From: Microbacterium foliorum
GTDB lineage: Bacteria > Actinomycetota > Actinomycetes > Actinomycetales > Microbacteriaceae
Length of the DNA stretch: 64,000 bases
Assembly (NCBI RefSeq): GCF_003367705.1
Contig: NZ_CP031425.1
Coordinates: 1,302,001 to 1,366,000 of the forward strand
Reading direction: 5' to 3'
Below are positions 38,030 to 45,553 of the stretch, in pieces. Every line of letters begins with the position of its first letter. Position 1 is the first letter of the stretch. The translations under genes were made by a program, and so were the position numbers. Under the pieces are notes generated by a model that was not told the origin of the DNA, ran no database searches, and saw only the letters and a list, made by a program, of their open reading frames with translations.

Positions 38030-39166
38030 ATGGATCTCCTCGTCGTCGGGTCTGGCTTCTTCGGACTCACCATCGCTGAACGCGCAGCCGCCGCCGGCCG
38101 GAAGGTCACGGTCATCGACCGCCGCCACCACATCGGAGGCAACGCGTACAGCGAGAACGAGCCGGAGACCGGCATCGAGGTGCACCGTTACGGCGCGCAC
38201 CTCTTCCACACCTCGAACCCGACCGTCTGGGAGTACGTCAACCGCTTCACGACGTTCACGAACTACGTGCACCGGGTCTACACGAACCACAACGGCATCG
38301 TTTTCCCGCTTCCCATCAACCTCGGCACGATCAACCAGTTCTTCAACGCCGCGCACACGCCGGACGAGGCACGAGCGCTGATCACCGAGCTGGCGGGGGA
38401 GTTCGACCCGAAGTCCGCGCAGAACCTCGAGGAGCGCGGCATCGGTCTCATCGGACGCCCGCTCTACGAGGCGTTCATCCGCGACTACACGGCCAAGCAG
38501 TGGCAGACCGACCCGCGCGACCTCCCTGCCGAGATCATCAGCCGGCTTCCCGTGCGCTACACGTACGACAACCGCTACTTCAACGACACGTGGGAGGGGC
38601 TGCCGACCGACGGCTACACCGCGTGGATCGAGCGGATGGCCGACCACGAGAACATCGAGGTGAAGCTCGAGGTCGACTTCTTCGACGAGTCGCAGCCGCT
38701 CAACAAGAAGGCCACGGTCGGGCAGGTCCCGATCGTGTACACGGGTCCGGTCGACCGCTACTTCGACTACGCGGAGGGCGAGCTGTCCTGGCGCACGCTC
38801 GACTTCGAGGAGGAAGTGCTCCAGACCGGAGACTTCCAGGGAACGCCGGTGATGAACTACGCCGACGCGGGCGTGCCCTACACCCGCATCCACGAGTTCC
38901 GTCACTTCCACCCCGAGCGGGAGGACCGCTACCCCAAGGACAAGACCGTGATCATGCGGGAGTTCTCGCGTTTCGCGACGCGCGACGACGAGCCGTACTA
39001 CCCCGTCAACACCCCGACGGACCGGTCGGGCCTGCTGGCCTACCGCGAACTGACCAAGGGTGAGAGCGACGTCCACTTCGGCGGCCGTCTCGGCACCTAC
39101 CAGTACCTCGACATGCACATGGCCATCGGGTCTGCGCTGTCGATGTGGAACAACGAGCTGGCCTGA
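38030..39166 (+). CDS. glf: UDP-galactopyranose mutase
   Basis: The 378-residue flavoenzyme begins [20 protein letters not shown] and has [42 protein letters not shown] and [14 protein letters not shown], all typical of bacterial UGM. With reduced FAD it interconverts UDP-galactopyranose and UDP-galactofuranose, the donor for galactofuran. It is immediately followed by a GlfT2-like polymerase and an ABC exporter. The ATG at 38030 is preceded by CAGGAAAG; the reading from 37637 overlaps the acyltransferase in another frame and is rejected. Confidence 0.97.
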
Positions 39167-39177
39167 CGGGACTCCCC

Positions 39178-41088
39178 ATGACTGAGAACACGAGAACGAA
39201 CACCGACTTCGTCGCCGTCAATCACACGGTCTTCCCCACCGAGGGAGTGGCCGAGGTCTCGGCCCTCTACGTCGACACAGGCTCCGGCGACGGCTCCCAG
39301 CCCGGCGAGGCGTACGAGATCGTCGGGCGTCGCAGCATCCGGGTCTATGCGCACCGCCGCGTCTCGCTGAGCACCTACTTCAACGCGTTCCCGGCCAGCT
39401 ACTGGCAGCACTCGACGAACGTCCGCTCGGTCCGTCTCGTCGCGACCGTCGAGGGCAAGGGACTGATCTCGGTGTACAAGTCGAGCGCCCGAGGGCGCGC
39501 ATCGGCGCTCGCCTCGAAGTCCTTCTCCGACGAGACCGTCACCTTCGACCTCCCGATCACCTCGTTCATCGACGGCGGCTCCTACTGGTTCGACATCGCG
39601 GCGGGGAACTCCGATGCGACGCTCGTCTCGGCGGAATGGCAGGTCGCGGCTCCCGAGGATTGGACCCCCGGCAAGACGACGGTGGGCATCACCACCTTCA
39701 ACCGCCCGTCGTACTGCCTGAACCAGATCATCGCGGTGGGGCAGAACGAGCACGTGCACGATGTCCTCGATCGCGTGATCGTGGTGGACCAGGGCACCGA
39801 TCTCGTCTCGGATCAGCCGGGTTTCGACGACGCCGCCGCGGCGCTCGGCGACAAGCTGGAGGTCCTGCGACAGCCGAACCTCGGTGGCTCCGGCGGATTC
39901 TCGAGGGCCATGCTCGAGTCGCTCGGCTCCGAGGAGAGCCGGTACGTGCTGCTGCTCGACGACGACGCCATCTCCGAGCCGGAGGCCATCGTGCGGGCCG
40001 TGCGCTTCGCGGACTTCGCGATCACCCCGACCATCGTCGGCGGCGGCATGCTGCACCTCGACGACCGCTCCGTCCTGTACACGCAGGGCGAGGTATGGGA
40101 TCAGCGCAAGTCCTGGATGCGCCCCTCCGGCGCCAGCGAGTACGACCACGACTTCGCGGAGGAGACCCTGCGCGAGACCCCGGGGCTGCACCGTCACCTC
40201 GGTGCAGACTTCAACGGGTGGTGGATGTGCCTCATCCCGACCGCGATCCTGCGCGAGATCGGTCTGTCGCTGCCGGTGTTCCTCAAGTTCGACGACATCG
40301 AGTACTCGCTGCGTGCGCGCGAGCACGGGTACCCGACCGTCTGCCTGCCCGGAGTCGCGGTGTGGCACATGGCCTGGCACGACAAGGACCCCACTCGCAC
40401 GTGGGAGGAGTACTTCATCCACCGCAACCGGGTGATCACCGGTCTCCTCCACTCGCATGTCCGCAACGGCGGGTTCCTTCCGCTGCACTCCTTCCTCGGT
40501 GACATCAAGCTGCTGTTCATGCTGCAGTATTCGGCGGTGCGCCTGCGGCACGAAGCCCTGCGCGACGTCATGCGCGGCCCCGCCGTGCTGCCCGATCTGC
40601 TCCCGGGCAAGCAGGCCGAGATCCGCGAGATGCGCACGGCGTACATCGACTCGAAGGTCGTCGAAGACCTCTCCGCGCTCCCGCCCGTCCGTCGCTCCTC
40701 GTTCGCGATCCTCGGCGGCGTACGCAAGCCGACGAACCCGATCGCGGCGCTCGTGCTCGCCGCAAGGGTCGGAGCGCGTCAGCTGCTGATCAAGCAGTCG
40801 CCAGGCAGCCGCCTCAACCCCGAGCGGATCATCTCGGCACAGGACATCAACTGGTGGCGGTTCGCCGACATCGATTCCGCGCTCGTGACCTCGCCCGACG
40901 GGCTCGGCGTCGCCTGGTACCAGCGTGATCGCTCGACGATGCACCGCTTCCTCCTCCGCAGCATCCGGCTCAACCTCGCTCTGGCGCGGCGCTGGAAGGT
41001 GCTGTCCGAGGAGTTCGCGAAGGGCACCCCGAAGGTCACCTCGCCCGATCAGTGGCGGGCGACGTTCGATAAGGTGCAGAAGGACTGA
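39178..41088 (+). CDS. GlfT2-like galactofuranosyltransferase
   Basis: The 636-residue protein matches the length and domain plan of mycobacterial GlfT2: an N-terminal beta-barrel domain (about 30-155), a GT-A domain with VGITTFNRPSYC, DQPGF and LLLDDDA (D261-D263), FLKFDDIEYSLRAREHG (D372-D373) and HMAWHD (H397), and a C-terminal helical domain. In mycobacteria the corresponding residues bind metal and act as general base, and the enzyme polymerises alternating beta-1,5 and beta-1,6 galactofuranose. It lies 11 bp after glf. The ATG at 39178 gives the expected N-terminus; the in-frame extension to 39145 overlaps glf. Confidence 0.92.
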   Translation: MTENTRTNTDFVAVNHTVFPTEGVAEVSALYVDTGSGDGSQPGEAYEIVGRRSIRVYAHRRVSLSTYFNAFPASYWQHSTNVRSVRLVATVEGKGLISVYKSSARGRASALASKSFSDETVTFDLPITSFIDGGSYWFDIAAGNSDATLVSAEWQVAAPEDWTPGKTTVGITTFNRPSYCLNQIIAVGQNEHVHDVLDRVIVVDQGTDLVSDQPGFDDAAAALGDKLEVLRQPNLGGSGGFSRAMLESLGSEESRYVLLLDDDAISEPEAIVRAVRFADFAITPTIVGGGMLHLDDRSVLYTQGEVWDQRKSWMRPSGASEYDHDFAEETLRETPGLHRHLGADFNGWWMCLIPTAILREIGLSLPVFLKFDDIEYSLRAREHGYPTVCLPGVAVWHMAWHDKDPTRTWEEYFIHRNRVITGLLHSHVRNGGFLPLHSFLGDIKLLFMLQYSAVRLRHEALRDVMRGPAVLPDLLPGKQAEIREMRTAYIDSKVVEDLSALPPVRRSSFAILGGVRKPTNPIAALVLAARVGARQLLIKQSPGSRLNPERIISAQDINWWRFADIDSALVTSPDGLGVAWYQRDRSTMHRFLLRSIRLNLALARRWKVLSEEFAKGTPKVTSPDQWRATFDKVQKD

Positions 41089-44591: not shown

Positions 44592-44596
44592 GTCGG

Positions 44597-45553
44597 TCAG
44601 CCCTCCAGAGGCGGCATCGGCGTCCAGAAGCGGTCGCGTCCGAGCACGCCGCCCTCTTTGAGTCCGCGGAACAGATTGCTGGTGCCGCGCACGGTGCGCT
44701 CGACGAACAGCAGCCGGATGAGCTCCTTGGCGAAGGTCATCGACGTGCCGAGCCCGAACAGGACCGGGTTGTAGGTGCCGTGCACGCGGTAGTACTGCTT
44801 GATGTAGGCGCGGTTGCGCATGATGTAGAAGCGGTAGGCGTTGCTCGACGCGTTCATGTGGCGGATGCCCATGTCCCACTGCTTGATCTCACGGGTGCGC
44901 CGCAGCACGAACTCGTCGACGATGACGGCCGTGGTCCGGCGCGAGGCGAGCCATCCGTACATCTGGTCGTCCCAGTAGATGAAGAACCTCGGGTCGGGCA
45001 AGCCGATCTGCGTCACGATCGAACGGTGGATGAACATGCCCTCGAAGCATCCGCTGTTCATCTCCTTGTAGCCGGAGGAGTCGAAGCCGGACGGAGCGAA
45101 CGGGATCGGGATGCCCATGCGCTCGGCGATGCGGTACTGCCAGTAGAACTCGCTGCCGTCGTAGTCGTAGCGGCGGCCCTGGATGCTCTTGAAGCGGGGC
45201 GTCCACTTTCCCATCTTGGCGAGGCCGTCGGGGACGACCTCGACGTCGTCGTCCATCATCCAGATCCACTCGGATCCCAGCTCGTACGCGGTGCGCATGC
45301 CCTCGCTGAAGCCGCCGGAGCCGCCCGTGTTCGTCTCGAGGCGCCGGTAGACGAGCTCGGTGCCCAGACGCGGTCGGAAGGAGTCGACGACCTCGGTGGT
45401 GTCGTCGGACGACGCATTGTCGATGATCACGACGTGGCCCGGCTTCGGTTCCATCGAGACGATGCTCTCGAGAAGGCCCGTCAGCAGGTGGGAGCGGTTG
45501 AACGTGACGATGACGATCGTCGCGGACGCCGGGTCGAAGGGGACGTGTGTCAC
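44597..45553 (-). CDS. GlfT1-like family 2 glycosyltransferase
   Basis: The 318-residue protein has ATIVIVTFNRSHLLTGLLESI, VVIIDNASSDDT, ETNTGGSGGFSEGMRTAYELG, WIWMMDDDVEVV and PRFFIYWDDQMYGWLASRR, plus FYIMRNRAYIKQYY in the C-terminal part. The GGSGGF and MDDD motifs match the galactofuranosyltransferase branch (GlfT1 in mycobacteria, which adds the first two Galf residues to the rhamnosyl linker). It stands beside the exporter and GlfT2-like genes, which supports a priming role. The GTG at 45553 is reached from a TAGGCT -10 at 45610-45605. Confidence 0.82.
   Translation of the reverse strand: MTHVPFDPASATIVIVTFNRSHLLTGLLESIVSMEPKPGHVVIIDNASSDDTTEVVDSFRPRLGTELVYRRLETNTGGSGGFSEGMRTAYELGSEWIWMMDDDVEVVPDGLAKMGKWTPRFKSIQGRRYDYDGSEFYWQYRIAERMGIPIPFAPSGFDSSGYKEMNSGCFEGMFIHRSIVTQIGLPDPRFFIYWDDQMYGWLASRRTTAVIVDEFVLRRTREIKQWDMGIRHMNASSNAYRFYIMRNRAYIKQYYRVHGTYNPVLFGLGTSMTFAKELIRLLFVERTVRGTSNLFRGLKEGGVLGRDRFWTPMPPLEG

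Follow-up and report, generated by a model that had tools for sequence, protein, structure and literature searches.

The stretch of DNA analysed here, referred to below as the window, comprises 64,000 nucleotides of Microbacterium foliorum (positions 1302001-1366000 of a 3.57-Mb, one-contig genome) and carries a block of genes resembling those of mycobacterial galactan synthesis. An earlier note on this DNA had placed glf, a GlfT2-like polymerase, Wzm, Wzt, a PF04230 protein and a GlfT1-like GT2 glycosyltransferase within positions 38,030 to 45,553, and every one of these genes was located there. As the extent of the locus this interval holds for the core genes only, since the locus also includes rmlABCD, two AT3-SGNH acyltransferases, an open reading frame (ORF) of 202 amino acids (aa) and a pair of Wzy_C ORFs; in a domain search, rmlA-rmlB-rmlCD and the two acyltransferases were found upstream of glf and co-directional with it. 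The earlier note does not mention the lineage of the polymerase, the SucT-like character of one acyltransferase, the two Wzy_C ORFs, the conserved 202-aa gene or the presence of another Wzm-Wzt pair in the window. The features of the locus are the following:

30382..31257, plus strand: rmlA, glucose-1-phosphate thymidylyltransferase type (PF00483, 250.7 bits)
31257..32255, plus strand: rmlB, dTDP-glucose 4,6-dehydratase type (PF16363, 244 bits; PF01370, 216 bits)
32262..33677, plus strand: rmlC-rmlD fusion, one ORF of 471 aa (PF00908 at residues 14-182, PF04321 at residues 190-470)
33674..35806, plus strand: AT3-SGNH O-acyltransferase a (PF01757, PF19040)
35914..37938, plus strand: AT3-SGNH O-acyltransferase b, SucT-like (PF01757, PF19040; NF058601)
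38030..39166, plus strand: glf, UDP-galactopyranose mutase (TIGR00031, PF03275)
39178..41088, plus strand: GlfT2-family galactofuran polymerase of lineage A, 636 aa (PF17994, PF13641 and PF19320; PDB 9dtp and 4fix; tree and approximately unbiased (AU) test)
41132..41923, plus strand: Wzm-type ATP-binding cassette (ABC) permease (PF01061, 56.2 bits; below the NF050109 cut-off)
41923..42657, plus strand: Wzt-type ABC ATPase, 244 aa (PF00005; below the NF050108 cut-off)
42758..43939, plus strand: polysaccharide pyruvyltransferase-family protein, accessory gene (PF04230; GT-B-like model)
43983..44591, minus strand: small conserved protein, 202 aa (ORF with counterparts in loci L003 and L077)
44597..45553, minus strand: GlfT1-like GT2 glycosyltransferase, candidate starter enzyme (PF00535, 70.4 bits; below the NF050113 cut-off)
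45554..45650, no strand: slot B, empty here, the site of the lineage-B GlfT2 in other Microbacterium (blastn against the slot of locus L007)
45651..47279, minus strand: Wzy_C (O-antigen ligase/polymerase superfamily) ORF 1, overlapping ORF 2 (PF04932, 32.3 bits, cut-off 31.7)
46946..48361, minus strand: Wzy_C ORF 2 (PF04932, 49.4 bits)

Minus-strand ORFs at 38-44 kb, for which the first domain scan was empty, were rejected as genes, and the ORFs at 43639-44661 (plus) and 45550-46800 (minus) were judged spurious.

By the cut-offs applied, Glf and the polymerase are members of their families. Glf exceeded the curated equivalog cut-off (TIGR00031, 324.9 bits against 303.75), and all three domains of the 636-aa protein scored above theirs (PF17994, 103.1 bits; PF13641, 98.3 bits; PF19320, 129.3 bits). 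The possibility, raised earlier, that homology searches might place this protein in an unrelated transferase family was not borne out, as the matches were to GlfT2 domains and, in PDB, to the solved galactofuranosyltransferases 9dtp (E 7e-129) and 4fix (E 3e-123). The residues D261-D263, D372-D373 and H397 are present at the positions named in the earlier note; PMC6863818 gave no GlfT2 residue numbers for comparison with the mycobacterial enzyme. An alignment of 114 rows, from which 12 far outliers were removed beforehand, left 102 core GlfT2 rows, and the catalytic D-D-D, D-D and H were invariant in all of them, including eight rows (L091-L098) from genomes carrying Emb. The nearest named matches of the window GlfT2 were from Microbacterium, where flanking genes are up to 97% identical; among the 120 matches listed of 6838 proteins, databases already apply the GlfT2 name to one Microbacterium protein and a galactan-polymerase-type name to others.

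The predicted absence of arabinan from the galactofuran was examined genome-wide with two arabinosyltransferase families. Neither Emb (PF04602) nor AftA (PF12250) had any match in the one-contig genome, with the control Corynebacterium glutamicum positive for both; an arabinogalactan locus was therefore rejected, and an arabinan-free galactofuran is the best reading, as had been predicted. GlfT2 without Emb is a common state. In a sample of 296 genomes of the phylum, GlfT2_N was found in 19 (over the cut-off in 17), and 11 of these 19 (9 of 17 when only over-cut-off GlfT2_N is counted) were without any Emb match. Emb exceeded its cut-off in eight of the 296 genomes, all eight also positive for GlfT2_N and all of one family (f6). 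The location of these functions at two places, earlier ascribed to mycobacteria, was confirmed in Emb-bearing genomes. Of the five f6 genomes searched for GlfT1, four have it at a distance of 45-52 kb from GlfT2, and the fifth has the two genes on separate contigs. Three Emb-bearing f6 genomes (G573, G348 and G532; loci L109, L110 and L111) also hold a second, divergent GlfT2-like protein.

The view that such a locus is unusual for the family was not borne out: GlfT2_N was present in 65 of 299 family genomes (28 of 85 genera), the GlfT2 name is in databases already, and a search of 295 genus genomes with the window GlfT2 gave matches at E 1e-3 in 237, of which 203 were strong (E 1e-90 or better) and 34 weak (E > 1e-30). 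No description of the locus was found in open-licence PMC text on Microbacterium or Microbacteriaceae, on actinobacterial or Bifidobacterium galactofuran, on GlfT2 or on pyruvylated galactan. Loci of relatives were compared as the best 80 of 326. A GlfT1-like protein over 60% identical to that of the window was found in 32 of these 80, and within 10 kb of glfT1 in those 32 loci lay GlfT2 (32), Wzy_C (30), glf (27) and a window-like Wzt (20).

In a tree of 114 rows, the window GlfT2 fell into a 12-row clade, A, made up of Microbacterium and one metagenome-assembled genome (MAG). Clade A is part of a larger supported group of 43 rows, the remainder being 28 rows from Bifidobacteriaceae and three others (two Microbacterium, one MAG); the branching order among clade A, these three rows and the Bifidobacteriaceae is unsupported. 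Most other Microbacterium rows form lineage B, elsewhere in the tree with Mycetocola, Agromyces and Cryobacterium, and an AU test rejected A and B as a single clade (48 rows, p-AU 0.0099, log-likelihood difference 246). By its placement in the tree, then, the window polymerase belongs to lineage A and not to lineage B, where most other Microbacteriaceae tree rows fall.

The genes around the polymerase tell a different story from the polymerase itself. Between the window and Microbacterium sp. SD291 (L077), the glfT1-like gene is 92% identical, wzt 91%, glf 85%, wzm 78% and wzyC 74-75%, but glfT2 only 42%. The lineage-B Microbacterium loci more widely (L077, L081, L054 and others) have glfT1-like, wzt, wzm, glf, wzyC and manA genes 50-92% identical to those of the window, and L077 and L081 have the 202-aa gene as well; their polymerase differs, being 41-43% identical. 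In the strains compared, the lineage-B gene is sited between wzyC1 and glfT1, whereas that of lineage A adjoins glf and stands between glf and wzm in the closest strains, the order glf-glfT2-wzm-wzt being found in 7 of 13 lineage-A stretches. Close strains thus differ in which polymerase they have and in its slot, yet their genes for the starter, the exporter and Wzy_C are highly similar, and the most likely reason is an exchange of the polymerase inside an otherwise conserved machine. We consider it probable, from the gene content and these comparisons, that the locus serves the assembly and export of a galactofuran (poly-galactofuranose, poly-Galf) that bears no arabinan, with its polymerase exchanged in this way.

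In the pathway we propose, Glf would supply UDP-Galf, and the GlfT1-like GT2 would prime a lipid-linked acceptor, probably bearing rhamnose from the products of the adjacent rmlABCD. The GlfT2-family enzyme would then polymerise Galf at the cytoplasmic face and Wzm-Wzt would export the completed chain. Judging from their families, the AT3-SGNH proteins would O-acylate the galactan and the PF04230 enzyme would pyruvylate the chain in some strains; arabinan addition would be absent. The lipid-linked start, cytoplasmic polymerisation and ABC export are modelled on the mycobacterial pathway, which, in passages of PMC10951656 and PMC7168186, comprises Glf, GlfT1, GlfT2, Wzm-Wzt and a WecA-WbbL linker. 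The window resembles this pathway in Glf, a three-domain GlfT2 with its catalytic residues, a Wzm-Wzt-type pair (the window Wzt having only 244 aa), a GlfT1-like GT2, dTDP-rhamnose genes and a SucT-like acyltransferase. It differs in having no Emb or AftA match, in forming a single block with rml, in missing the GlfT1, exporter and SucT cut-offs, and in adding the Wzy_C pair, a small probable membrane protein and the PF04230 gene.

Three further features of the window bear on how the chain might be anchored and exported:

11160..12614, plus strand: LCP-family ligase candidate, one of three LCP matches in the genome (PF03816)
16536..18177, minus strand: second Wzt-Wzm pair, competing exporter candidate (PF00005, PF01061)
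22790..23713, minus strand: rhamnosyltransferase-like GT2, candidate for the linker step (TIGR01556, 112.5 bits, cut-off 200.55)

Background on LCP proteins and arabinogalactan is available in parts of PMC7831098. Besides the three LCP matches, the genome has two matches to PF00953. One of these we take to be MraY, and the other is a candidate for starting a linker of the WecA type. As far as can be judged from the genes, rmlABCD and the rhamnosyltransferase-like GT2 are consistent with a rhamnose-containing linker, and also with a rhamnose-containing second polymer.

An alternative that deserves weight, even if we rate it as less likely than not, is that the galactofuran is not linked to the wall by LCP proteins and that the adjacent Wzy_C (WaaL-like) proteins transfer the chain to a lipid or another glycan, yielding a lipoglycan or capsule. 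Two Wzy_C ORFs lie beyond glfT1 and a Wzy_C gene is found within 10 kb in 30 of the 32 related loci, as noted above; a homolog of the window LCP was found in none of the 32 (BLASTP at E 1e-8 and 60% coverage, which is a weak test given the diversity of LCPs). Moreover, the Bifidobacterium GlfT2 is grouped with lineage A, and a phospho-glycero-beta-galactofuranan is made there according to passages of PMC10700415 and PMC12355684. Against such a transfer stand the three LCP matches in the genome and the possible WecA-type PF00953 protein, and the Wzy_C proteins may serve another polymer. It also counts against it that LCP genes need no linkage to polymer genes and that the polymerases of Wzx/Wzy pathways likewise belong to Wzy_C. 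For the anchor of the proposed galactofuran chain, LCP and Wzy_C are both possible, and the attachment through rhamnose by an LCP ligase that the earlier note put forward is uncertain.

The earlier note had expected the polymer to be probably pyruvylated, and the protein at 42758-43939 does exceed the gathering cut-off of PF04230 (43.6 bits against 25.3). It had no match among PDB sequences, either as a single sequence (E 0.1) or as a profile (E 10); its predicted model has a predicted local distance difference test (pLDDT) score of 94.3, and fold searches matched it to generic GT-B-like enzymes, with Pvg1p not among the matches listed, which speaks neither for nor against pyruvylation. That the protein does not pyruvylate and instead attaches a side sugar as a glycosyltransferase of the GT-B type is a reading we regard as doubtful: it scores over the PF04230 cut-off, and Pvg1p, a solved pyruvyltransferase, likewise resembles GT-B enzymes (passages of PMC4872226). 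The modelled phosphoenolpyruvate contacts of Pvg1p, R217 and R337-L338-H339 (as given in part of PMC6801904), have putative look-alikes in R194 and R311-F312-H313, with a spacing of 117 against 120 residues and the equivalence taken from that spacing alone; no candidate for D106 of Pvg1p was identified. R194, R311 and H313 were invariant in 42 of 42 aligned PF04230 rows. Relatives of the protein are 44-96% identical, the named ones being mostly from Microbacterium (among 120 listed of 250).

Pyruvylation of the galactan by the PF04230 enzyme is plausible for those strains that have the gene. With a family match and a motif behind it, the earlier expectation is uncertain, and the gene is a recurrent accessory. 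Among the 14 lineage-A genomes it was found in six (that of the window, G719, G611 and those matching L005, L006 and L007), had no match in the locus stretch of seven, and in one the locus was ended by the contig, giving 6 of 13 assessable genomes. A pyruvyltransferase as a fixed part of the system was rejected, since three of the nearest relatives (L003, L004 and L008) had no match to the gene in their locus stretches. PF04230 occurs within 15 kb of GlfT2 in 9 of 65 GlfT2-positive family genomes (that of the window included, and some sharing one genus), with 13 hits near GlfT2 against 0.8 expected under a crude uniform model. Of the 28 Bifidobacteriaceae loci represented in the tree, five also had homologs of the PF04230 type (32-34% identity).

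Some strains bear on the history of the exchange. M. oxydans BEL4b (L007) carries both polymerases, with glfT2-B at 16371-18464 of L007, and Microbacterium sp. MYb62 (L006) carries A together with a relic of B, in which two pieces of 39 and 130 bp could still be matched to the B frame of L007 and about 1.9 kb are gone. When the content of the L007 B slot was compared by blastn to window positions 45554-45650, no match was found. The simplest order that we infer is that A was gained, that both were then present, and that B was then lost. The same two strains would also be expected if A and B were ancient paralogs, both ancestral, with strains differing by loss alone. This is an unlikely history, however: at 70% identity or more the window GlfT2 is matched in only 14 of 295 genus genomes, its own included (the next match being at 50%), so that many parallel losses of A would be required, and B groups with the enzymes of Mycetocola, Agromyces and Cryobacterium. 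That this is an ordinary actinobacterial galactan locus with normal sequence drift, as the wide occurrence of GlfT2 might suggest, is highly improbable, since drift does not explain a polymerase at 42% beside neighbours at 74-92%, the differing slots or the B relic.

The GlfT1 label of the proposed starter enzyme is weak. A GT2 does lie where the earlier note put its GlfT1-like enzyme; the curated GlfT1 cut-off was missed. The hhalign probability was 98.5% for f6 GlfT1 (223 columns), likewise 98.5% for GlfT2 (280 columns) and 99.4% for Bifidobacterium GT2s. It appears to be a galactofuranosyltransferase-like GT2 of remote kinship, equally near GlfT2 and GlfT1, and its exact step is deduced. 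Relative to the mycobacterial families, GlfT1, Wzm and Wzt of the window are, by their scores, cases of likeness and not of membership.

Several observations weigh against an arabinan-free galactofuran locus with an exchanged polymerase as set out above. The GlfT1-like GT2 scored 72.2 bits with NF050113 against a cut-off of 330, although this was the best such match in the genome (five f6 genomes scored 518-541 bits), and Wzm and Wzt scored 51.2 and 146.7 bits with NF050109 and NF050108 against cut-offs of 380 and 400. The second Wzt-Wzm pair scored similarly (44.7 and 161.7 bits with NF050109 and NF050108, same cut-offs) and is closer than the first pair to the one found next to glf-glfT2 in Arthrobacter (L014), its Wzt being 67% and its Wzm 50% identical; the assignment of the glf-linked pair as the exporter is therefore not certain. 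A window-like Wzt was near glfT1 in just the 20 of 32 loci mentioned, and the linkage of PF04230 to GlfT2 in the family is real but partial. As to the tree, it was rooted at the midpoint only, the clade submitted to the AU test was defined after the first tree had been viewed, and A with Bifidobacterium as a single clade was neither rejected nor demonstrated (p 0.36). Six of the 13 lineage-A stretches depart from the order glf-glfT2-wzm-wzt by an intervening AT3 gene, by having no window-like wzm-wzt or by a contig end, and strains with two copies were counted from locus stretches alone, the genus match list undercounting second GlfT2 copies.

If the exchange took place, nature has provided an experiment on the need for contact between GlfT2 and Wzm-Wzt in setting galactan size, a contact proposed for mycobacteria (passages of PMC10951656). 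Similar exporters (Wzt 91%, Wzm 78%) stand beside polymerases about 42% identical, and M. oxydans BEL4b has the two polymerases next to a single exporter. Galactan assembly without arabinan outside the mycobacteria would also make each step removable for study. A further idea, which we think quite unlikely, is that A and B make different galactans on a common starter and exporter, M. oxydans making both, and that, in strains with the PF04230 gene, a ketal caps the chain and sets its length. Both acceptor hydroxyls of GlfT2 would be blocked if the terminal Galf carried a pyruvate ketal at O5 and O6; a 5,6-ketal on Galf is recorded for Klebsiella K12 in the title of a reference in PMC6801904. 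Were this so, Microbacterium would alter the chemistry or length of its galactofuran by swapping the polymerase alone.

Among other known systems, the wall galactan of Promicromonospora citrea is likewise actinobacterial and pyruvate-bearing but consists of galactopyranose with 4,6-pyruvate, not of Galf (from part of PMC6801904). Galactofuranans are known from Bifidobacterium, namely a wall galactan of B. catenulatum and the phospho-glycero-beta-galactofuranan of B. bifidum (the latter from PMC10700415), with arabinan unmentioned in the passages concerned. Bifidobacterium shares with the window a GlfT2 in the common supported group and, in the five loci above, PF04230-type homologs, but its matches to the window starter, Wzm and Wzt are just ~22-44% identical. 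Seven Bifidobacteriaceae loci (L023, L035, L042, L043, L044, L045 and L078) have a second GlfT2-like protein near the first, the two being 23-26% identical. The window also holds a CDP-glycerol glycerophosphotransferase (PF04464) at 2859-4112, of relevance as the Bifidobacterium galactofuranan bears glycerol phosphate.

Acyltransferase b matched the SucT family NF058601 almost over its full length (residues 9-665) with 366.4 bits, below the cut-off of 1275; in M. tuberculosis, SucT is linked to succinyl groups on arabinogalactan and lipoarabinomannan (passages of PMC10503756). The 202-aa ORF lies directly behind the GlfT1-like gene and had no match in Pfam. It is conserved, with tblastn matches in 18 loci (its own copy and duplicates included), the others being 37-72% identical, and occurs in lineage-A and lineage-B loci alike. 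By eye, its product has one hydrophobic, probably transmembrane stretch, a Ser/Thr/Pro-rich linker and a C-terminal part, and is probably a membrane protein. Elsewhere in the window, a DUF6541 protein is encoded at 19456-21396, 17 of the 32 related loci having DUF6541 ORFs no more than 10 kb from their GlfT1-like gene, and a GT2 at 26761-27905, whose best NCBIfam matches, below the cut-off, are polyprenyl-phosphate sugar synthases, adjoins a DUF2304 protein.

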